A program made the position numbers and the translations under genes. A stretch of DNA of 13,207 nucleotides. Source: an uncultured Altererythrobacter sp. (lineage in GTDB: Bacteria > Pseudomonadota > Alphaproteobacteria > Sphingomonadales > Sphingomonadaceae). The stretch spans positions 1 to 13,207 of the forward strand of contig CALFEA010000158.1 of NCBI GenBank assembly GCA_937950385.1, written 5' to 3'. This document shows, piece by piece, positions 1-12,496 of the stretch; position 1 is the stretch's first letter; each line of letters starts with the position of its first letter. Under the pieces are notes generated by a model. The model was not told the origin of the DNA. It made no database searches and saw only the letters and a program-made list of their open reading frames with translations.

Positions 1-565
1 CTAGGATTGCAGCGTGGGCAATACCGTCTTTGCTGGAGCGAGCCGGGATCGAGTCCTCCTCTAGCATTTCGGTGATAGTGGCCCTGGCGCGGCCAACTCG
101 GCTTTTGATTGTGCCAACTGCGCATTCGCAAATTTGCGCCGCCTCTTCGTAGGAAAAACCGCCTGCGCCGACCAGTAGCAGTGCCTCGCGCCGTTCGGGG
201 GGCAGGGTCATCAATGCGCGGTGCATATCGGATAAATGTATCGGTTCTTCTTGGCCAGCCGGTGCGGTAAGAATGCGTTCTGCAACGACCTCATCATACT
301 CACCGTGAAATTTATTGCGCCGCATATCCGTTAGATAGGCGTTGCGCAGGATCACAAAAATCCAAGCACGCATTGAGGTTCCTGGCTCAAACCGATCACG
401 CGCCGCCCATGCCTTTAGCATTGCTTCTTGGACGAGATCATCGGCCGCGTCTGGGCGGCCGCAAAGGCCGCGCGCAAAGGCACGCAAATGCGGAATAACC
501 TCGGTCAGTTCGCGCTTGAAATCGGCTTTTTGAGCTGCCGTGCGTTCGACTTGAGTCATCAACAT
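1..565 (-). CDS. ecfG: General stress response ECF sigma factor EcfG (3' end cut by window edge)
   Basis: ECF-family sigma factor that directs RNA polymerase to general stress response promoters. Numbering from the ATG at 559, a sigma-2 region lies at about residues 12-80 (GRPDAADDLVQEAMLKAW, then RAWIFVILRNAYLTDMRR). A sigma-4 region lies at about 113-165 (LPPERREALLLVGAGGFSYEEAA, helix-turn-helix ending TIKSRVGRAR). The LVGAGG-FSYEEAA segment is typical of EcfG. No stop codon is reached at position 1. About 186 codons are present, close to the usual EcfG length, so only a few C-terminal residues are probably missing. The ATG at 565 abuts the nepR stop (TAG-ATG), and a second in-frame ATG lies at 559. 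No good ribosome binding site is visible, so translation is probably coupled to nepR. It is cotranscribed with nepR from the EcfG-type promoter at 843-867, which suggests autoactivation. In the family, NepR holds EcfG inactive until phosphorylated PhyR captures NepR. Confidence 0.95.
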   Translation of the reverse strand, partial: MLMTQVERTAAQKADFKRELTEVIPHLRAFARGLCGRPDAADDLVQEAMLKAWAARDRFEPGTSMRAWIFVILRNAYLTDMRRNKFHGEYDEVVAERILTAPAGQEEPIHLSDMHRALMTLPPERREALLLVGAGGFSYEEAAQICECAVGTIKSRVGRARATITEMLEEDSIPARSSKDGIAHAAIL

Positions 566-757
566 CTAAGTGCTTTTGCTGTCATCATCGAGTTTATCGA
601 GAAGATCATTGAAGCTGTCAGGTAGCGGTTCATCGACCACGGAATCATAAAGCTGACGCAGACCATTGGCCCAATCTGGCTCGCGGGCATCCTGCGGCGA
701 AGGGCGTTTTTTGCCCTTCTTTTTGGAAAGTTTCGAATCTTTGCCTTGCTTGGCCAT
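566..757 (-). CDS. nepR: Anti-sigma factor NepR
   Basis: Small (63-residue) anti-sigma factor of the general stress response. It sequesters EcfG in unstressed cells and is itself captured by phosphorylated PhyR. The N-terminus (1-20) is Lys/Ser-rich and probably disordered. The conserved NepR core follows: helix 1 at about 28-42 (DWANGLRQLYDSVV), the linker DEPLPDSF, and helix 2 at about 47-58 (FNDLLDKLD). The LRQLYD...EPLPDSF...LLDKLD pattern is diagnostic of the family despite the small size. The start is well fixed: an in-frame TAA lies only one codon upstream of the ATG. It is the first gene of a nepR-ecfG operon with no intergenic base before ecfG. The leader from the predicted EcfG promoter is about 80 nt. 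Confidence 0.95.
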   Translation of the reverse strand: MAKQGKDSKLSKKKGKKRPSPQDAREPDWANGLRQLYDSVVDEPLPDSFNDLLDKLDDDSKST

Positions 758-842: not shown

Positions 843-867
843 AACGACAATAACTCTGAATGGTTCC
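843..867 (-). promoter_or_regulatory. EcfG-type promoter of nepR-ecfG
   Basis: On the minus strand GGAAC (867-863) is followed after exactly 16 bases by CGTT (846-843). This is a perfect match to the alphaproteobacterial EcfG consensus GGAAC-N16/17-CGTT. It points at nepR, whose start is about 86 bases downstream of the CGTT. It implies that EcfG activates its own operon. The match is seen directly; the promoter activity is inferred. Confidence 0.85.
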
Positions 868-892
868 CAATTTTTGTTCTAGTTAGGATTTG

Positions 893-2533
893 ATGACTCA
901 AAATAGCCAAAAAGAAAGCCAATTTGGCGGAGCGAATGGGGGTCTTACAAACTTCTTGCTCGCGCTGCCTCGCTTGTCAGCAATTGGAGTTTTTGTTTTC
1001 ATCGTCCTCATAACCGTCATTGGGGCCATCGCGATTGATCGCAATGAAACGGCGAAACATGAGGCGTTGATGCGCGATGTTTCCAATGCTCTTGTTGCCG
1101 ATTTGGAGCGACGGGTTAGCAACCATTTGGCTTTTTTGGGCGCTGGTGCAGCGCTATTCTCTGTAGTCGACGAAGTGGATGAAGCTGTCTTTTCTAGCTT
1201 TGTCAGTTCTCTGCCACGCGCGCAGGATCCTGTCGGTTCACAAGGTGTCGGCTGGGCCAGGGTGGTTGGCCAAGAAACATCTTCGGCGATGAAAGTCCCC
1301 GTTACTTTTCTAGAGCCGCCGGGCGAGGGCAATCAGCGCAGTCTGGGTTTCGACCTGTATTCAGAACCCGCAAGGCGTGAGGCAATCACTATTGCTGCAG
1401 AAACCGGTAAGCCCAGCACTTCGGGTAAATTGCAGCTAGTCAACCGGCCCAAAGATAAGGGTTCGGGCTTTCTTATTCTGGTGCCGGTTTATAATTTGCC
1501 AGCGGATCAAGTGACAAGGCTTGATAAGAGGGCGCGCTCTTTGAAGGGGTTTGTGTTTACCCCATTCAACGCGCCTCAGGCTTTGGATGAGGCCCTAGAG
1601 AGTACCGCATATAAAGATCTGAGCGTACGCTTGTATTATGGCGATGCCCGGCCAGAAAACCTTTTGGCGTTTCATGAAGGTGATCAAGAGGCGGGCAACA
1701 GTATTCTTGAGAGAGTACTTGTTGCCAATAAAAAGATGACGATCTCGGTCGCTTCAGCTCCTCGTCCAGTTATCTCAATTTTGGCGCTCGAGACTTTGCT
1801 GCTTGGCCTAGCCGTTGCAACCTTGCTCGCATCGCTGATCCATTTCGTGACAGAGCGCGCAATCCTAAATGAAGCGTCGCGTGAGCAGATGGAGCAGCAA
1901 AACTCGATCCGTTCATCATTGACTAGGGAGCTCAATCACCGGGCAAAGAATACGCTCGCCAATGTATTGTCGATCATTTCATTAACGCGGCGCCGCAGCA
2001 CGGATTTGGATCAATTTGCGGATGCGCTGGATGGACGAGTGCGGGCCTTATCAGCGACCCATGATCTGCTCACCCGGTCAGAATGGAGCACGACGCCGCT
2101 CCGCGATATTTTGGAAACGGAATTGTCTTCCTTGATCGAGGCGCGCGAGGGAGCAGTGCGCTTGTCTGGTCCTGATACTTTGCTGGCTCCCAATGATGCA
2201 CTGTCGCTTGGATTGGCGGTGCATGAATTGGCAACCAATGCTGCGCGTTTCGGCGCGCTTAGCGTGCCAGAGGGGCAATTGAGCGTTAGCTGGCATCTGG
2301 ATGGCGATGGGATCGCGATTGTGGAATGGCGGGAGCTAGGCGGGCCCCCTGTGCCGCAAGAGCGGACTGAAGGTTTTGGGACGAATTTGATCGAGAAAAT
2401 TGTGGCTCACGAATTCAAAAGCCCGGTCGACCTACAATTTTTGCCAGAGGGTGTTGTGTGTGTTTTGCATGTTCCAGTGCGCGAGCGGGTAGATTTTGCG
2501 ATCCGGCAAAAACCGTCGATCAGCCGGCTCTAA
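893..2533 (+). CDS. Membrane-bound CHASE-domain HWE sensor histidine kinase, probable PhyR-pathway kinase
   Basis: A 546-residue sensor kinase. Transmembrane helix 1 is at about 29-49. A periplasmic CHASE domain spans about 70-285 (GFDLYSEPARREAI at 152-165, then SGKLQLVNR and GFLILVPVYN, the CHASE signature). Transmembrane helix 2 is at about 292-318. The cytoplasmic HWE kinase core has its phosphoacceptor His349 in RELNHRAKNTLA, the N-box HELATNAARFGAL with Asn449, the W-x-E motif at 479-481 (WRELGGPPV), and the glycine box GFGTNLIEKIV at 494-504. Kinases of the HWE/HisKA_2 class are the known regulators of PhyR, and this gene lies between nepR-ecfG and phyR, so PhyR is its likely partner. 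Whether it acts mainly as kinase or phosphatase cannot be read from sequence; Sphingomonas PhyP and Erythrobacter GsrK/GsrP are precedents of both signs. The ATG at 893 is preferred over the TTG at 890 because a TAGGA-like ribosome site lies about 5 bases upstream. Confidence 0.9.
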   Translation: MTQNSQKESQFGGANGGLTNFLLALPRLSAIGVFVFIVLITVIGAIAIDRNETAKHEALMRDVSNALVADLERRVSNHLAFLGAGAALFSVVDEVDEAVFSSFVSSLPRAQDPVGSQGVGWARVVGQETSSAMKVPVTFLEPPGEGNQRSLGFDLYSEPARREAITIAAETGKPSTSGKLQLVNRPKDKGSGFLILVPVYNLPADQVTRLDKRARSLKGFVFTPFNAPQALDEALESTAYKDLSVRLYYGDARPENLLAFHEGDQEAGNSILERVLVANKKMTISVASAPRPVISILALETLLLGLAVATLLASLIHFVTERAILNEASREQMEQQNSIRSSLTRELNHRAKNTLANVLSIISLTRRRSTDLDQFADALDGRVRALSATHDLLTRSEWSTTPLRDILETELSSLIEAREGAVRLSGPDTLLAPNDALSLGLAVHELATNAARFGALSVPEGQLSVSWHLDGDGIAIVEWRELGGPPVPQERTEGFGTNLIEKIVAHEFKSPVDLQFLPEGVVCVLHVPVRERVDFAIRQKPSISRL

Positions 2534-2546
2534 GGGCGCTGGATTG

Positions 2547-3353
2547 CTAACTGATGGGGCTGCTTGATTTGAAGAACAAAGCTTGGCTAATGGCGGCGCG
2601 GACTGTTTTTTCTTGGAACGGCTTGGTCACCAAATAGGTTGGCTCAGGCCGGTCGCCTGTCAACAATCGCTCAGGATAGGCGGTGATGAATATCACCGGC
2701 ACAGAACCGATGGCGAGAATGTCATCAACCGCATCAAGGCCTGATGATCCATCGGCCAATTGAATATCCGCTAGCACCAGTCCTGGCGAGGCACTGGCGA
2801 CGATGTCTTGTGCCTGTGTCCGAGTTGCTGCTGTGCCGCAAATAGTGTGTCCTAGCCCATCAACAAGTTCCTCCAATTGCATGGAGATCAGCGGCTCGTC
2901 TTCAATTATTAGAACATTTGTCGCGGATTCATGATCAATCTCGCCGATGGCATCCTGCACCAGATCGCCGATTTCATCGATAGGCAGACCTAGGATTTCG
3001 GATGCTTGATCAGTGCTAAACTCCTCTAGAGTTGTCAGTAATAATGCCTGCCTGTTCAGCGGCGTTATCGCGCTAAGCCGCCCTCGCGCCGCCGTTTCGT
3101 GGGCCGATCCATGCGTTTCGCTGTCTGAGCTGGTTGCGCCTGTGTCCTTGTGGGTTGTTGACCAGACAATTGTGAATGCTCGGTAGAGGCCAGCACGGCC
3201 TTCTTCTAGCATGTGTTTAACCGATGGATTATCCAAGGAAGCCTGTAATGTTGCGCGAACAAAATTGTCGCCGCTTTTCTGTGATCCGGTGAGCGCGCGC
3301 GCATAGCGCCGCAAATATGGCAAATTCGCTGCAACACGATTACTTAACGACAT
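2547..3353 (-). CDS. phyR: Response regulator / anti-anti-sigma factor PhyR
   Basis: Master switch of the general stress response. Its N-terminal half mimics an ECF sigma factor and its C-terminal half is a receiver; on phosphorylation it binds NepR and frees EcfG. The sigma-like part covers about 1-140: the sigma-2-like region begins LPYLRRYARALTGSQKSGD at 11-29, and the sigma-4-like region is about 97-140 (LNRQALLLTTLEEFSTDQASEILGL). The receiver is at about 145-265, with acidic residues E151-D152-E153, phosphoacceptor Asp196 (LADIQLAD), Thr224 (FITAYPERLLTG) and Lys244 (KPF). The 268-residue length is normal for the family. A GTGAGG ribosome site lies 7 bases before the ATG. The gene converges on the kinase with only 13 bases between stop codons. 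No canonical EcfG promoter is visible upstream, unlike nepR. Confidence 0.97.
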   Translation of the reverse strand: MSLSNRVAANLPYLRRYARALTGSQKSGDNFVRATLQASLDNPSVKHMLEEGRAGLYRAFTIVWSTTHKDTGATSSDSETHGSAHETAARGRLSAITPLNRQALLLTTLEEFSTDQASEILGLPIDEIGDLVQDAIGEIDHESATNVLIIEDEPLISMQLEELVDGLGHTICGTAATRTQAQDIVASASPGLVLADIQLADGSSGLDAVDDILAIGSVPVIFITAYPERLLTGDRPEPTYLVTKPFQEKTVRAAISQALFFKSSSPIS

Positions 3354-3560
3354 CTGACGACCTCACCCCAAAATTATGAACAAATTCGTCTTTTCAAATT
3401 AACTAACTTGAATCCAATCAATAAAAATTTGAATTTCAAAAGAATTATTTCATTAGTCTTAAAATTTGTTTCAGTGAACAAAATAATGGAATTAGGAAAG
3501 CAATGAAATCAGTGTCCTGTGAAAATTTTGCAAGTAAGTGGCTTTTTTGTCAGATTTTTG
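3354..3560. other. AT-rich intergenic region upstream of phyR
   Basis: About 207 bases between the phyR start and the sRNA promoter with no credible ORF. It is markedly AT-rich compared with its surroundings. It must hold the phyR promoter on the minus strand. The best sigma-70-like candidate is TTGAAA (3397-3392) and TAATTT (3376-3371), but the 15-base spacer is short, so this is weak. There is no GTTCC (minus-strand GGAAC) in this stretch. Confidence 0.5.
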
Positions 3561-3585
3561 GGAACCGATTGCGCCTTGATGCATT
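3561..3585 (+). promoter_or_regulatory. EcfG-like promoter of the candidate sRNA
   Basis: GGAAC (3561-3565) is followed after exactly 16 bases by CATT (3582-3585). This matches the EcfG consensus GGAAC-N16/17-CGTT at all but one position. The spacing is identical to that of the nepR promoter in this window. Transcription would start near 3591, right at the base of a stable hairpin and about 55 bases before an intrinsic terminator. Confidence 0.65.
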
Positions 3586-3590
3586 CTTTT

Positions 3591-3678
3591 AATGTCACCG
3601 CCGAGACCCCCCTCCCGTCCAAGCGGTTGGTGACATGTTTTTAAGGCCCTTGCTCTGACGAGCAGGGGCCTTTTTTCT
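3591..3678 (+). ncRNA. Candidate general-stress small RNA, GsrN-like
   Basis: A noncoding transcript of about 88 nt is defined by an EcfG-like promoter just upstream and an intrinsic terminator at its end. Hairpin 1 (3592-3636) has eight Watson-Crick pairs (ATGTCACC with GGTGACAT), a G-U pair, one bulged U, and three more pairs. It exposes a loop of about 20 nt (3604-3623) containing CCCCCCTCCC, complementary to purine-rich Shine-Dalgarno sequences. A U-rich linker (3637-3642) follows, then hairpin 2, the terminator. In Caulobacter crescentus the sRNA GsrN is transcribed by the GSR sigma factor and pairs with mRNA such as the katG leader through a C-rich loop. The layout here is the same, and the position beside phyR fits. 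Homology to GsrN is inferred from architecture and regulation; I cannot align them. The RNA converges on the GNAT-like gene at 3711. Confidence 0.65.
3645..3676 (+). terminator. Intrinsic terminator of the candidate sRNA
   Basis: An 11-base-pair stem pairs 3645-3655 with 3660-3670 (one G-U pair) around a TGAC loop, followed by TTTTTT (3671-3676). The T-run is present only in the plus direction; on the minus strand the stem is followed by TTAAAAAC. It therefore terminates plus-strand transcription, and the only plus-strand transcription unit available upstream is the candidate sRNA. Confidence 0.85.
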
Positions 3679-3710
3679 GTTCTAGGTGACAAAGATGACT
3701 GGATTTGCGC

Positions 3711-4868
3711 CTAAAGCGCTTTTTCAAAAATCACATATTCGCGGTTGCATGTGCTTTCGATCGTATCAGCAATAGCAACCATTCCCTTATTATCATCAAG
3801 GATCCAGCCAAGCTCTCCGCGTGCAGAGTCAAATTCGGCAACCGATGCTTCGCGAATGTCGCTGATCATCATAAAGGCAAGCTGGCTAGCGAGCCGCGAA
3901 TTGTGCAGCTCTTTCTTCACGCCCATCAATGGCACTCGCATGCCCGATTGGCTTGGTTTGCGTAGCCAGCGCAGCAAATGGAACCAGCCAAAGGGAAACA
4001 GCTTGCCATCTATTTTCTGTAGGACGTGATTAATGTCTGGGAAGGTCAGCATGAAGGCAACCGGTTCACCGTCCAGTTCTGCAATCATATTGAGCGGCTC
4101 AAAAATGATCGGTTTCAGTTTCTTGCCTGTATAGGCAATCTCTTCGGGGGTCAGCGGGACAAAGCCCCAATTGTCGGACCAAGCGTCGTTGAGGATCGCC
4201 AGAACCGAAGCTGCCTCCTCATCCCAACGCGATTTGTCGACACGCCGCACGGTCACACGCTCATTGTTTTGGCCTGATTTGACAATCCGTTGCACCAGCT
4301 TGGGGAAGGGTCTGTCGATTGGGACATCATAGGTGAAAAGCGTTTTGGCAATGTTATATCCCGCGCCCTCTATCCAACCGCGATAGGCTGCGGGGTGATG
4401 GCCCATCATGATCATCGGCGCATGATCCTGCCCGCGCACGAGCAGCCCGGGTTCCTCCCATATAGACATCGATATCGGCCCTAAAGCGCGTGTCATGTCT
4501 TGCTCGCGCAACCAATTTTCAGCCGCTGTTAGCAGGGCCTTGCCGATACTTTCATTCTCAGCATCGAAATAGCCGAAATTGCCTGTTCCAGGTCCAAAGC
4601 CTTGTTCAGGCGGCATAGTTAGCGCCAGCTCGTCAATATGCGCAGATATGCGCCCGACGGTTTTGCCTCCGCTTTTTGCAAGGAATAGCTGCGCACGCGC
4701 ATGGCCGAAAAACGGATTTTTATCCGGGTCAATCAATTCCATCTGTTCGCTGCGCAATTGAGGTACACTATTGGGCAGGCGTGCGGCAAAATCGCGGCCG
4801 CATTCAACAAAGGCGGAGCGGCCCCGCTTGCCAGATACCGATTCAATCACCACTTCAGCGCTAGACAC
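3711..4868 (-). CDS. GNAT-like protein of unknown function (YghO-type family)
   Basis: A cytoplasmic protein of about 385 residues in a widespread but uncharacterised GNAT-related family that includes E. coli YghO. Family hallmarks, numbered from the upstream ATG: VPQLRSEQMELIDPDKNPFF at 37-56, QLFLA...VGRISAHID at 62-81, GNFGYFDAENES at 98-109, then GPISMSIWEEPGLLV at 132-146 and MIMMGHHPAAYRGWIE at 154-169. No signal peptide or membrane helix is evident. The substrate is unknown. Start choice: an ATG at 4874 sits directly against GGAGG (4879-4875), leaving no spacer, whereas the in-frame GTG at 4868 is 6 bases from that GGAGG. GTG is therefore the more likely start; the two differ by two residues. 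It is monocistronic as seen, divergent from the desaturase and convergent with the sRNA. Confidence 0.8.
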   Translation of the reverse strand: MSSAEVVIESVSGKRGRSAFVECGRDFAARLPNSVPQLRSEQMELIDPDKNPFFGHARAQLFLAKSGGKTVGRISAHIDELALTMPPEQGFGPGTGNFGYFDAENESIGKALLTAAENWLREQDMTRALGPISMSIWEEPGLLVRGQDHAPMIMMGHHPAAYRGWIEGAGYNIAKTLFTYDVPIDRPFPKLVQRIVKSGQNNERVTVRRVDKSRWDEEAASVLAILNDAWSDNWGFVPLTPEEIAYTGKKLKPIIFEPLNMIAELDGEPVAFMLTFPDINHVLQKIDGKLFPFGWFHLLRWLRKPSQSGMRVPLMGVKKELHNSRLASQLAFMMISDIREASVAEFDSARGELGWILDDNKGMVAIADTIESTCNREYVIFEKAL

Positions 4869-4911
4869 TTGCATCCTCCGGTTTAGCGAAAGCGTATCTG
4901 TGGCGACGGAT

Positions 4912-5000: not shown

Positions 5001-6104
5001 ATGTCCGGTACTATTGATCCAACTCTGCCTTCTGCGCCTGCTAGCTTGCGGGAAGGCGGACCTGCGCACCGCGCGCAATTTATGGATACCGATGACAAGG
5101 CGATGCTGCGCGCCGTGCGCGAGCTGACCCGTGATTTGGGCTCTGCAAGGGGGCGCTATTATTGGCCCGACATGCTGGTGTCAGCGGGGCTTGGTTATGC
5201 CGGAATAGCAAGCGCGGTTTTGGCTGACAGCCTGCCCTTGGCGCTGCTGAGCGGCCTGATTGCATCGCTAGCGCTGTACCGCGCGCTAATGTTTAATCAT
5301 GAGCTTACCCATCTGCACCGCGACGCGGTTCCTGGCTTCCGCCTTGTGTGGAACGCGCTGGTGGGTATTCCGCTTTTGACGCCCAGCTTTATGTATGAAG
5401 GCGTCCACACGCTGCACCATAAACGCACGCAATATGGCACGATTGAAGACCCTGAATATTTGCCGCTTGCGCTGATGAAACCGTGGAGCTTGCCGCTGTT
5501 TGTGATCGCGGCATTGCTGGCGCCGGTCGCGCTGATCCTGCGCTTTGCCGTGTTGGTGCCATTGAGCGCGATTATCCCGCCCCTGCGCACGCTATTGTGG
5601 CAGCGTGCATCCTCACTGGCGATCAATCCTGATTTCCGCCGCAAACCTGCAACGGGCTCTGTGCGGACATTGATGCTTTGGCAGGAAAGTGCAGGCTTCC
5701 TTTGGGCATGGGCTGTGCTGGCCTCGACCCAGATGATTGGCTGGCGTCCATTGCTGATCGCGCTGGCGATTGTGTCGGTGACAGCATTGCTCAATCAATT
5801 GCGCACTTTGGTGGCGCATTTGTGGGAGAATGAAGGCGATCCCATGACGGTGACCGCGCAATTCCTCGACAGCGTCAATGTCCCGCCGCCAGGGATAGTA
5901 GCAGAGGTTTGGGCGCCTGTTGGCTTGCGCTATCATGCGCTGCACCATCTTATGCCATCCATGCCTTACCATGATTTGCCAGAGGCGCACCGGCGACTGC
6001 GAAGCGAGCTAGGGACTGGTTCTACCTATGAAGGGGCGAACCATGCGGGCATGTTTGTATTGGTTGCGCGCATCGCCAAAAGCACGATGATTACGCGAGG
6101 GTAA
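5001..6104 (+). CDS. Membrane fatty acid desaturase family protein
   Basis: An integral-membrane non-haem di-iron desaturase/hydroxylase of the FA_desaturase family, 367 residues. All three histidine boxes are present: HELTHLH at 100-106, HTLHH at 136-140 and HALHH at 312-316, with a further His273 in a membrane-proximal segment (LVAHLWEN). Hydrophobic segments flank the boxes at about 59-96, 165-195 and 230-270, as expected for a four-helix desaturase. The likely substrate is a membrane lipid acyl chain, but carotenoid or sphingolipid-type substrates cannot be excluded. No strong ribosome site precedes the ATG at 5001, and an in-frame ATG at 5082 (MDTDDKAML) is an alternative start. The gene converges on the GNAT gene with four bases between stop codons. 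Confidence 0.88.
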   Translation: MSGTIDPTLPSAPASLREGGPAHRAQFMDTDDKAMLRAVRELTRDLGSARGRYYWPDMLVSAGLGYAGIASAVLADSLPLALLSGLIASLALYRALMFNHELTHLHRDAVPGFRLVWNALVGIPLLTPSFMYEGVHTLHHKRTQYGTIEDPEYLPLALMKPWSLPLFVIAALLAPVALILRFAVLVPLSAIIPPLRTLLWQRASSLAINPDFRRKPATGSVRTLMLWQESAGFLWAWAVLASTQMIGWRPLLIALAIVSVTALLNQLRTLVAHLWENEGDPMTVTAQFLDSVNVPPPGIVAEVWAPVGLRYHALHHLMPSMPYHDLPEAHRRLRSELGTGSTYEGANHAGMFVLVARIAKSTMITRG

Positions 6105-9675: not shown

Positions 9676-10476
9676 TTAAGCAGCTTTCTTGAAGCGCTCA
9701 ACAGCCACGCTGAAGCGGCTAGAGATTGGCGCGAAAGCGTCATTGTAGATTTTCAACCAGTTCTCAGTGTTCTTAGAACCGAAAGAAATCGCAGCATCAA
9801 CGTTGCGGCGTGCGATTTCACCTTGAAGCTGAACCAGCTCAGTAGGTGACTTAACAGCAGCCATTTTCTTCACGTCGGTTGTCACTGTAGCAGCAACAGT
9901 TTTGGTGGTCGCGATTTGCTCGCGGCCCATTTCTTGTGCGCCAGCAAACAGGATCTTGCCTGATTCAACAACCGCTTCGAGGTTGTCTTTGTTGAATGAG
10001 CCGAACTCACCAGCAAATTCGCCCGCTTTCGCAGCAGCTTCTTTAACGCGTGTTTGCGCGTCAGCAGCCATGTCTTTTGCTGTATCGGTGATGTTTGTGT
10101 CTTTAGCTTTAGCCATGATGGTATCCTTCAATTTGGAAACAGTGTTTGCCGCCTGAGTGGTTTTTGTTTTGGCGGTGGTTTTCTTTGGAGCGGCTTTTGC
10201 AGCGCGCTTCGCAGTTGTCTTCTTAGGAGCCGCCTTCTTCGCTGCTACTTTTTTCGCAGTTTTCTTAGGGGCTGCTTTCTTGGCCGCTGCTTTCTTAGGA
10301 GCAGCCTTTTTAGCCACTGCCTTCTTGGCAGGAGCCGCTTTCTTCGCAGGCGCAGCTTTTGCGGCCGGTGCGTCAGTTGTTGCAGCTGGTTTAGCAGCCG
10401 CGTCTGCATAGGCCTTCTCAGCCGCTGCATCGATTTTTGAAACTGTGTCAGTTACAGTGTTAGCATTGGTAGCCAT
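9676..10476 (-). CDS. phaP: Phasin family protein with N-terminal Lys/Ala/Pro-rich histone-like extension
   Basis: A surface protein of polyhydroxyalkanoate granules, 266 residues in two parts. Residues about 39-108 are a low-complexity run of AAPAKK / KKAAPKK-type repeats, very basic and resembling histone H1 tails. Residues about 110-262 form an amphipathic, helix-rich phasin domain: EFGSFNKDNLEAVVESGKI at 156-174, ELVQLQGEIARRNVDAAISF at 213-232 and ENWLKIYNDAFAPISSRF at 238-255. The basic tail probably binds nucleic acid. In Pseudomonas PhaF a comparable repeat tail lies at the C-terminus and tethers granules to DNA; here it is N-terminal. A GAGGA ribosome site precedes the ATG. It lies downstream of phaC but has its own promoter, flanked by candidate operators, and its own terminator. 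Confidence 0.88.
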   Translation of the reverse strand: MATNANTVTDTVSKIDAAAEKAYADAAAKPAATTDAPAAKAAPAKKAAPAKKAVAKKAAPKKAAAKKAAPKKTAKKVAAKKAAPKKTTAKRAAKAAPKKTTAKTKTTQAANTVSKLKDTIMAKAKDTNITDTAKDMAADAQTRVKEAAAKAGEFAGEFGSFNKDNLEAVVESGKILFAGAQEMGREQIATTKTVAATVTTDVKKMAAVKSPTELVQLQGEIARRNVDAAISFGSKNTENWLKIYNDAFAPISSRFSVAVERFKKAA

Positions 10477-10487
10477 GAGATCCTCGC

Positions 10488-10510
10488 TTTATGTTGCACT
10501 GCACAAAATA
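10488..10510. promoter_or_regulatory. Candidate PhaR operator, promoter-proximal copy
   Basis: TTTATGTTGCACTGCACAAAATA is the promoter-proximal arm of an inverted repeat. It overlaps the -10 box and the presumed start of the phasin transcript. The TTGC-NN-TGCACAA core resembles the TGC/GCA-rich sites bound by the PHA repressor PhaR in alphaproteobacteria. Binding here would block transcription. The repeat is seen; the regulator is inferred. Confidence 0.6.
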
Positions 10511-10532
10511 GGCATTGCGACTGCGAAGTCAA
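10505..10532 (-). promoter_or_regulatory. Sigma-70-type promoter of the phasin gene
   Basis: On the minus strand TTGACT (10532-10527) and TATTTT (10510-10505) are separated by 16 bases. The start would be near 10498, giving a leader of about 20 nt. The promoter sits exactly between the two inverted-repeat arms. Confidence 0.7.
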
Positions 10533-10533
10533 G

Positions 10534-10558
10534 TATTTTTTGTGCACCGCAACATAAA
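10534..10558. promoter_or_regulatory. Candidate PhaR operator, promoter-distal copy
   Basis: Inverted copy of the element at 10488-10510, lying just upstream of the -35 box. Read on the minus strand it begins TTTATGTTGCGGTGCACAAA. It differs from the first copy by two substitutions (AC to GG) and two extra A residues. The pair brackets the phasin promoter. Confidence 0.6.
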
Positions 10559-10585
10559 TGAAGAAAGTGGCTATATTTCTGAAGC

Positions 10586-12496
10586 TTAGCGCGTCTTTAC
10601 ATAGCGTCCAGGCGCATCTTCAATCATGCTATCACCGCGCCCACCCGGCTTGCGCTTGCCTTTTACCGGCACGCGGACGTTATCTTGAGCCTCCAGCCAT
10701 TCCATCCAATAGGGCCACCAACTGCCCGGATGCTCCTCAGCGCTTTCAATGAAATCAGCCAGCGAGGCCGCCTTGCTGTCGCCGACCCAATATTGATATT
10801 TGCCCGCAGCAGGAGGGTTCACAACTCCGGCAATATGGCCCGATCCCGCCAGCATGAAATTCACCGGCCCAGAATAGTGCTCGGTCGCGCGCCATACGCT
10901 TTCGGCCGGCGCAATATGGTCTTCCTTGCCTGCTTGAATAAAGCTGGGCGTGGTGATTTGGGTGAGATCAATTTTGGTCCCATCTGCCTCCAGCGCATCA
11001 GGCTGAACCAATTTATTGTCGCGGTAGAGATCGCGCAGATAGGCTCCATGCCATTTGCTCGGAAGATTGGTGACATCGCCGTTCCAATGCAGCAGATCAA
11101 AAGCGGGATAATCCTCACCCATCAGGTAATTGTTTACGACGTAATTCCAGATCAAATCCTTGCCGCGCAGGGAATTGAATGTCGCTGCCAAGAACCGCCC
11201 ATCGAGATAACCGTCGCCTGACAGTTGATCGATCATATCGAGCTGGCTTTCGCCGATCAGTGTTCTCAGCTCACCGCTGCGTTCAAAATCCACTTGGGCT
11301 GTAAAGTATGTTGCGCTTTTGACTTTATCGCTCTCACCGCGCCGCGCCATAACGGCCAGGCTAGCGGCCAAAGTTGTGCCTGCCACGCAATAGCCGATGG
11401 TGTGGACGCTCGGCACATCGAGCCGTTCGCGAATATGGTCAATCGCGCTGATTTGGCTGCGGATATAATCGTCCCAAACAACATCTTTCATCGAGGTGTC
11501 TGCCGATTTCCAGCTCACCACAAACACTGTCAGACCTTGATCAACGGCCCATTTGATGAAGCTCTTCTTTGGTGTCAGATCGAGGATGTAGAAGCGGTTG
11601 ATCCACGGCGGGAAAATCACCAAGGGAACTTCCAGCACGTCCTTGGTTGCGGGGCTATATTGCACGAGCTGGTACATTGGCGTTTCGTGCACAACCTTAC
11701 CCGGTGTCGCCGCCAAATTCTCGCCCAAGGTAAAGGCGTTGGGATCAGTATGGGTCAGCTGCCCGCGCTTTAGATCGGTGATCAAATGCTGCATCCCGCG
11801 CACCAGGTTTTGGCCCTTGGTGTCCATGGTGCGCTGCATCACGGCCGGATTGGTCATGAGGAAATTATCGGGGCTCATCGCATCGAGCAGGGACTGGGTT
11901 GCGAATTGCAATTGCTGGCGCTTTTCCTTGTCCAGCCCATCAATATTTTTGACAGCTGAGGAAAGATATTCCGCCAGCATCAGATAGCTTTGGTGAAGCA
12001 AGATAAAGCCCGGGTGCTGCTGCCATGCAGGATCGGAAAAGCGGCGATCCTTGCGAGGAAGAGCGGGCGCATCGGCATCGCCTGATTCGCCTGCGCCCAT
12101 CAATCCGGTAAAGGCGCTTTGCCAAATTTCGGCTGTGTCTTTCGCAGCTTTTTGCGCCATATCGATTGGGGCTTTGGGCATATGCTTAGCAAAGCTTTGC
12201 GTCATCAACATGAATTGCGCAGGATCGATTGCTTGGCTGCCATTGCCCATTTTACCAGCCGCCTCGCTGGCCTTATCTTTCAAAAACCCGAGCCAAAGGG
12301 TCTGCAATTGCGCTGCGGATCCGGACCATTCAGCCATGTCCTTCGGATCAAATTTGGCTGAATTGGGTTGATTCTCGCTCAGGCCCAATCCGGCAAAGCC
12401 TTCCATCATAGTGCGCAAAGCATCGCTTCCTTGATCGAAAAATGCGCGCATTGGTTCGCTTGCGTCGCCGGGCTTTCCGTTTTGGTCTTTGGCCAT
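10586..12496 (-). CDS. phaC: Class I poly(R)-hydroxyalkanoate synthase PhaC
   Basis: Polymerises (R)-3-hydroxyacyl-CoA into polyhydroxyalkanoate at the granule surface. The 636-residue length fits class I synthases. The N-terminal domain (about 1-250) is variable and helical, with the PHA-synthase segment RFSDPAWQQHPGFILLHQSY at 152-171. The catalytic alpha/beta-hydrolase domain follows: VIFPPWINRFYILDL at 293-307, nucleophile Cys370 in the lipase-like box GYCVAGT, general-base Asp526 in GKEDHIAP, and His554 in GSGHIAGVVNPP. LLHWNGDVTNLP at 468-479 is also typical. The box has Ala where many class I enzymes have Gly after C-x. A Lys/Arg-rich C-terminus (611-620) is present. The only ribosome site is weak. 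It lies upstream of the phasin gene, and no copy of the phasin operator is seen before phaC. Confidence 0.97.
   Translation of the reverse strand: MAKDQNGKPGDASEPMRAFFDQGSDALRTMMEGFAGLGLSENQPNSAKFDPKDMAEWSGSAAQLQTLWLGFLKDKASEAAGKMGNGSQAIDPAQFMLMTQSFAKHMPKAPIDMAQKAAKDTAEIWQSAFTGLMGAGESGDADAPALPRKDRRFSDPAWQQHPGFILLHQSYLMLAEYLSSAVKNIDGLDKEKRQQLQFATQSLLDAMSPDNFLMTNPAVMQRTMDTKGQNLVRGMQHLITDLKRGQLTHTDPNAFTLGENLAATPGKVVHETPMYQLVQYSPATKDVLEVPLVIFPPWINRFYILDLTPKKSFIKWAVDQGLTVFVVSWKSADTSMKDVVWDDYIRSQISAIDHIRERLDVPSVHTIGYCVAGTTLAASLAVMARRGESDKVKSATYFTAQVDFERSGELRTLIGESQLDMIDQLSGDGYLDGRFLAATFNSLRGKDLIWNYVVNNYLMGEDYPAFDLLHWNGDVTNLPSKWHGAYLRDLYRDNKLVQPDALEADGTKIDLTQITTPSFIQAGKEDHIAPAESVWRATEHYSGPVNFMLAGSGHIAGVVNPPAAGKYQYWVGDSKAASLADFIESAEEHPGSWWPYWMEWLEAQDNVRVPVKGKRKPGGRGDSMIEDAPGRYVKTR

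Follow-up and report, generated by a model that had tools for sequence, protein, structure and literature searches.

A conserved small RNA family with a C-rich loop lies beside phyR in the general stress response locus

Results

The locus and the anatomy of the small RNA

The window, a stretch of 13,207 nt from an uncultured Altererythrobacter sp., carries genes of the general stress response (GSR) in the order ecfG (partial), nepR, a CHASE/HWE kinase gene, phyR, the small RNA (sRNA) described here and an acyltransferase-like gene (Table 1). The ecfG assignment is based on its position after nepR and on the conserved gene order in relatives rather than on a family search. The acyltransferase-like gene had no Pfam match; at least 8000 homologues of it were scored, and it stays beside the sRNA in the loci read. 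Elsewhere, at 9676-12496 on the minus strand, the window holds phasin and polyhydroxyalkanoate synthase (PhaC) genes, which are ordinary.

Table 1. Features of the general stress response locus in the window.
Feature	Position	Strand	Evidence
ecfG sigma factor, partial, leaves the window	1..565	-	translation; place after nepR
nepR, anti-sigma factor	566..757	-	PF18557
nepR-ecfG EcfG-type promoter, GGGAAC-N16-CGTT	843..868	-	
Histidine kinase of the CHASE/HWE type, flanked by nepR and phyR	890..2533	+	PF03924, PF07536
phyR, anti-anti-sigma response regulator	2547..3353	-	PF22029, PF22233, PF00072
EcfG-type promoter of the sRNA, GGGAAC-N16-CATT	3560..3585	+	sequence
sRNA 5' hairpin	3592..3636	+	fold; identity; covariation
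C-rich loop GAGACCCCCCUCCCGUCCAA, proposed pairing region	3604..3623	+	sequence, conservation
Single-stranded linker, U-rich in the window, ACGAUCCCGA in most relatives	3637..3642	+	
Intrinsic terminator, stem and six Ts	3643..3676	+	fold; covariation
Acyltransferase-like neighbour, far side of the sRNA	3711..4874	-	"N-acetyltransferase" in public records

A preliminary description of this DNA had proposed a self-contained sRNA unit between phyR and the acyltransferase-like gene, there called GNAT-like, and every element that it named lies in place. The EcfG-like promoter consists of GGAAC at 3561-3565 (GGGAAC at 3560-3565), a spacer of 16 nt and CATT at 3582-3585. Transcription is predicted to start about 7 nt past CATT, close to the base of a 5' hairpin in which 3592-3603 pairs with 3624-3636 around a 20-nt loop (GAGACCCCCCTCCCGTCCAA). 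The terminator is made up of a stem at 3643-3672 and six Ts at 3671-3676. The RNA from 3586 to 3678 folds at -42.1 kcal/mol, compared to -23.2 +/- 2.9 in 200 shuffles (z -6.5). The opposite strand of the segment is also stably folded (z -4.8), and we therefore assigned the direction of the sRNA by its promoter and T-run rather than by its fold. As had been noted, the terminator has no plus-strand gene immediately before it: the flanking phyR and acyltransferase genes are both on the minus strand, and the sRNA is thus a stand-alone plus-strand unit. The first plus-strand gene with a family match beyond it starts at 5001.

Conservation and covariation

Related loci were collected with a blastn query spanning 3540-3690, which gave 53 same-genus matches, and these were combined with the window and with loci from a search for PhyR. 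The PhyR search contributed eight further core-bearing loci, in which linkage to phyR is by construction; three of the eight were repeats of included genomes and were removed, as was L072, leaving 59 distinct sequences. L072, a blastn match outside the family (genome G072, E 0.004), was rejected as a chance match that has no GSR genes nearby and no match to the covariance model.

Across the 59 loci, compared ungapped and anchored on the C-run, the 5' hairpin reached a mean pairwise identity of 0.83, followed by the linker at 0.71 and the 5' arm of the terminator at 0.49. Values were lower for the A-rich stretch preceding the promoter (0.37), the promoter spacer (0.33), the sequence farther upstream (0.27) and the sequence past the terminator (0.25). 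Conservation of the 5' hairpin is far above chance. The C-rich loop of about 20 nt recognized in the window proved to be a family trait, its motif CCCCTCCCGTC being present in 56 of the 59 loci; the C-run is six long in 48 loci, seven in five, five in three, four in two and one in a single locus. The U-rich linker that had been described holds for the window and not for the family: 52 of the 59 loci have CGATCCC at this place and 44 have ACGATCCCGA, and the window has neither.

Both members of the pair had changed in 11 of the 21 pairs of the sRNA, and 98.5% of cells were paired, compared to at most 53.9% in slid versions of the structure. None of 500 shuffles matched the observed pairing percentage, pair count or covariation score, and six of the 500 reached the observed number of pair types. 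Most of the covariation is carried by the terminator stem, where eight of 11 pairs changed on both sides. The 5' stem is near-invariant within the genus (98.6% of stem cells paired, three of ten pairs changed on both sides), and compensating changes restore it in the distant loci L067, L068 and L040 and in variants from genus g41 (L162). The compensatory stem changes, near-invariant C-rich loop and conserved GGAAC box that the preliminary description had anticipated among relatives were all found. We conclude that the sRNA is a real, conserved RNA family.

The promoter and its -10 box

GGAAC and CATT are present in all 59 aligned loci, with a spacer of 16 nt in 58 and 17 nt in one. The nepR promoter of the same loci reads GGAAC-N16-CGTT in 49 of 53, and none was found in the other four. 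Within one locus, the pairing of CATT at the sRNA with CGTT at nepR-ecfG looks as if the dose of the sRNA were separately set. Given CATT in 59 of 59 sRNA loci against CGTT in 49 of 53 nepR loci, a different or weaker sigma input to the sRNA is conceivable. In the genome from which the window comes, GGGAAC-N16-CNTT was not enriched, with eight matches compared to 20 for a reversed-pattern control; two of the eight are the nepR and sRNA promoters.

A study of Sphingopyxis granuli (PMC7083833) places CATT among the frequent natural EcfG -10 boxes and gives TGTT as a further natural box. In that work the CATT promoter PmltA2 was transcribed in vitro with both EcfG paralogues, far more strongly with EcfG2; a change from CATT to CGTT raised output, and the change from CGTT to CATT at another promoter lowered it. 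Because CATT boxes in S. granuli are transcribed by EcfG, and more weakly than CGTT, the sRNA box fits a tuned EcfG promoter. Promoter sequence and the published in vitro data on CATT together suggest that the sRNA is under EcfG control.

Range across genomes

By blastn the sRNA is present in 53 of 60 same-genus genomes. Of 396 genomes of the order, 139 contain it when scored with a covariance model at a minimum of 40 bits; these carriers represent 27 genera, all from a single family. Weaker matches were left out of this tally because many genomes have matches scoring about 20-36 bits at places away from phyR, some of them antisense or to other hairpins. The best model match in G188 (33.4 bits) and in G030 (30.2 bits) sits immediately behind katG. 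When 385 genomes of the class were sampled, the window's own genome and four more of its family among them, strict filters and E <= 1e-4 left just two matches outside the family, at 37-38 bits. The host range appears to be one part of the Sphingomonadaceae, made up of the Erythrobacter relatives and possibly Novosphingobium; one carrier with a species name is Altererythrobacter xiamenensis CGMCC 1.12494 (L037). A literature search that covered titles and abstracts, with most subscription papers outside its scope, turned up no description of the sRNA.

Genus g41, possibly Novosphingobium, has both near-identical and diverged copies. All eight diverged copies that were read have a GGAAC promoter, a rebuilt stem and a C-rich loop and lie beside phyR; the sequence of the loop is altered and its C-richness retained. 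Their -10 box is CGTT in seven and TGTT in one, and the linker is CGATCCC in seven and CGTTCCC in L168. In these copies (L162, L163, L165-L169 and L187) the second hairpin is followed by TCAA and not directly by a T-run, and termination may be different. Four g41 copies below 40 bits (G243 at 38.0, G425 at 36.2 and G204 at 33.3 bits; G348 absent among the matches listed) were accepted solely by their position beside phyR. They are included in alignment A2 and in the sRNA-family model R2, and they are outside the 139.

Association with phyR

The physical linkage to phyR that had been pointed out in the window extends to its relatives: the sRNA is divergent from phyR, with the acyltransferase gene on its far side, in the window and in all 53 loci found by blastn with the sRNA's own sequence. 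Among genomes of the order sample with listed coordinates for both, the sRNA lies on PhyR's contig and on the opposite strand in 28 of 28 genomes (27 at 40 bits or more, plus G243 at 38). The distance to the N-terminus of PhyR is 152-282 nt in 21 of these genomes and 978-1589 nt in seven.

The PhyR model PF22029 was matched in all 139 genomes with a strong sRNA match, at E 7.2e-20 or better. Its matches in 326 of all 396 genomes overstate the presence of PhyR, as those near 1e-13 are probably EcfG itself, a reading adopted because G298 and G420 have such matches and no PhyR protein match. At the 40-bit cut-off the sRNA is missing from eight same-genus genomes, seven of which also lack a match to PhyR at E <= 1e-15. 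Estimated completeness of the seven is at least 95% in six and 70% in G053. Joint absence of PhyR and sRNA was seen in G007, G014, G033, G037, G047, G053 and G188, the last of which has no PF22029 match of any kind. The sRNA and PhyR are thus present and lost jointly, and part of the genus has apparently lost the GSR.

The exception is G030, which has kept phyR and has no sRNA; the sequence upstream of its phyR is identical to that of L041 (uncultured Erythrobacter sp. isolate 3-1198-3Z). The sRNA was likewise not found upstream of phyR in seven loci of genus g28, one of g38 and three of g31, nor in G373 (g41) and G066. Since phyR occurs on its own in G030 and in further genera of the family, a GSR can exist without the sRNA.

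Comparison with GsrN

The preliminary description had likened the RNA to GsrN of Caulobacter. PMC5869019 describes GsrN as an RNA of about 100 nt that is driven by sigma-T and whose 5' loop, with six tandem Cs, is modelled as the target-recognition site; katG is activated when GsrN pairs with its leader, and GsrN homologues are typically close to GSR genes. The same text describes a strict GGAAC/CGTT scan for Caulobacter and reports no apparent gsrN-like gene in Erythrobacter litoralis.

A GsrN-type loop pattern derived from the printed target sites matched 28 of the 89 genomes of family f70, which we infer to be the Caulobacteraceae. A GsrN-type 5' end was present at 27 f70 loci, one per genome, with PhyR within 1.5 kb in 23 of the 27; by loop, promoter and phyR proximity these loci are taken to be GsrN. 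Model R3 was built from 22 of the 27, the five with divergent or incomplete 3' parts being excluded, and it recognizes two of its own members, L198 at 120.7 bits and L216 at 103.6 bits. R3 gave no match at the window sRNA at E <= 10, so the covariance-model search that had been suggested did not recover the RNA. Among eight other loci of the sRNA family, R3 matched L160 (8.8 bits, E 1.5) and L166 (8.5 bits, E 1.7) on the RNA itself; these matches are no evidence of homology, yet not a clean absence either. Conversely, model R2 scored GsrN loci at no more than 16.6 bits and unrelated places at up to 23.8.

GsrN (CCNA_R0081) and the sRNA have in common an EcfG/sigma-T type of promoter, a C-rich unpaired 5' region, a terminator, a length of the order of 100 nt and a place near the GSR genes phyR, nepR and ecfG, which for GsrN is the usual one. 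The C-run is six or more in GsrN, and a run of six is present in 48 of the 59 sRNA loci. They differ in that the 5' stem of GsrN has an inner hairpin whereas that of the sRNA has none, and in that the -10 box is CGTT in the GsrN promoter and CATT in the sRNA promoter within the genus. Moreover, GsrN pairs with the katG leader, and a low-power comparison of katG leaders gave no sign of pairing with the sRNA. The earlier comparison therefore stands for layout, C-rich loop and promoter type and is not supported for membership of the GsrN family, as judged by R3 and R2: the sRNA is GsrN-like in layout, genomic place and probable sigma factor rather than by shown homology. The GsrN-like RNAs predicted in Rhizobiaceae and others (PMC5869019) resemble the sRNA in their GSR-locus position, EcfG site and exposed C-rich 5' loop, a likeness drawn from the published description and not from sequence.

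Comparison with other small RNAs

An Rfam scan of the window found no family at its gathering threshold and only weak matches below it. The best of these was suhB/MmgR (RF00519), which like the sRNA has a CU-rich stretch and a terminator; the aligned letters agree chiefly in the terminator, and membership was rejected because the match scored 20.6 bits where the family's gathering threshold is 41.

PMC10746234 describes an anti-Shine-Dalgarno sRNA, NfeR1, which silences translation through a motif complementary to the Shine-Dalgarno sequence. NfeR1/alpha-r14 and the AbcR-type cuckoo RNAs resemble the sRNA in having an unpaired CU-rich motif of this kind. In NfeR1, however, CCUCCUCCC occurs in each of three hairpins and transcription is controlled differently, whereas the sRNA has one loop with ACCCCCCUCCCGUCC. 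Membership of the alpha-r14/cuckoo group was rejected on the single loop with CCCCCCUCCC, no second copy of the motif being seen in the aligned RNAs.

Two genomes of genus g46, L170 (G418) and L179 (G408), have an EcfG-type promoter (CGTT and CATT, respectively) that points away from phyR. Behind it come two hairpins whose unpaired parts are C-rich (GCCCCC and CCCUCCUCACCCCCC), with no T-run. The sRNA-family model detected nothing at these two loci, which may hold a third type of C-loop RNA in the GSR locus.

Searches for targets

The sRNA loop contains CCUCCC, the complement of GGGAGG. We found katG in all 32 genomes tested, and in 30 katG loci the longest complement to the loop within 250 nt before the matched part was 5-9 nt. 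This upstream complement was better than all windows of the gene's own body in three of the 30 loci, a comparison of low power given that the GsrN site is just 7 nt. No conserved G-tract was present in the 30 katG upstream regions. Several loci, for example L245, L252, L262 and L264, share a TTGGAC(G) element some 150-170 nt ahead of the matched katG segment; it was rejected as a target signal of the sRNA as it is present also in genomes without the sRNA, and it is possibly a promoter element. Predicted pairing energies at the gene starts of ecfG, phyR, the kinase and the acyltransferase were no better than those of shuffles, and pairing at the nepR start was marginal, with 31 of 53 loci below their own shuffle mean; the shuffles were mononucleotide shuffles, and the nepR and ecfG starts are approximate.

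Discussion

The sRNA is a distinct family of GSR-locus C-loop RNAs. Beyond the observed anatomy of the gene, its conservation and covariation, its linkage to phyR and its joint presence and loss with PhyR, we consider it probable that the segment is an EcfG-promoted gene for a plus-strand sRNA of about 85 nt, a dedicated part of the GSR whose loop pairs in trans. PhyR would free EcfG from NepR, and EcfG would then make the sRNA together with its protein regulon, the intrinsic terminator ending the transcript at about 85 nt. The exposed ACCCCCCUCCCGUCC loop would pair in trans with G-rich mRNA leaders or with ribosome-binding sites of the GGGAGG type and alter the translation or stability of the target mRNAs. 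Silencing by blocked ribosome binding seems the likeliest outcome, and a GsrN-like activation is possible. Transcription and pairing are both read here from the sequence.

Other explanations of the segment can be weighed against this one. If the sRNA were a true GsrN orthologue, the ancestral gene of the Caulobacteraceae diverged in sequence, this would account for the shared layout (an EcfG promoter, then a 5' stem that has a C-rich unpaired part, a linker and a terminator), the six-C run in 48 of 59 loci and the position near phyR in both clades, and the weak R3 matches in L160 and L166 do fall on the sRNA. However, neither model detects the other family above background, the inner 5'-stem hairpin of GsrN-type loci is missing, the class sample of 385 genomes yields just two weak matches outside the family under its strict filters, and katG leaders gave no sign of pairing in a test of low power. 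We regard orthology as unlikely. It also seems improbable that the sRNA mainly binds protein or other RNAs as a sponge, its loop titrating a C-binding protein or a G-rich sRNA. The very high conservation of the loop, for which no target was found, would suit such a role; the g41 loops that change sequence yet stay C-rich fit pairing as well, and the C-rich loops of GsrN and CU-rich loops of NfeR1 act on mRNAs experimentally (PMC5869019, PMC10746234).

Two further readings dispense with a trans-acting RNA. The terminator hairpin sits where the acyltransferase gene has its 3' end, and the segment also folds well on the opposite strand, as would be expected of a mere terminator or regulatory element, belonging to that 3' end or to the phyR upstream region, with no separate RNA. 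This reading, which we consider very unlikely, leaves unexplained why all 59 loci have the promoter, why the 5' hairpin and its loop are near-invariant and why there is a T-run on the plus side, where the next gene with a family match is as far away as 5001. A short peptide gene is harder still to credit. Frame 0 of the plus strand is free of stops in 54 of the 59 loci, but so is frame 0 of the minus strand in 46. The C-run (six in 48 loci, otherwise 7, 5, 4 or 1) varies in length by single bases, which breaks the reading frame, the aligned loci showed no shared start codon, and the compensating stem changes indicate an RNA.

On the preferred reading, an sRNA gene driven by EcfG, a wider pattern can be proposed tentatively, and with rather less than even confidence. 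EcfG-driven C-loop RNAs may be a standard output arm of PhyR-NepR-EcfG, with several independent origins or replacements within the Alphaproteobacteria, represented by GsrN in Caulobacteraceae, by the ultraconserved sRNA in Erythrobacter relatives and g41, and by the two-hairpin type of g46. As part of this same tentative proposal, the non-consensus CATT -10 box would separate the dose of the sRNA from that of the nepR-ecfG operon.

The CATT box present in 59 of 59 loci also suggests how such RNAs may escape notice, as a strict CGTT search overlooks these promoters; that such a search caused the earlier miss in E. litoralis is only a guess. The sRNA offers a defined gene and a defined pairing loop for testing, and it would extend the GSR by a post-transcriptional arm in a large group of bacteria that includes E. 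litoralis, in which PMC5869019 reports no apparent gsrN-like gene.
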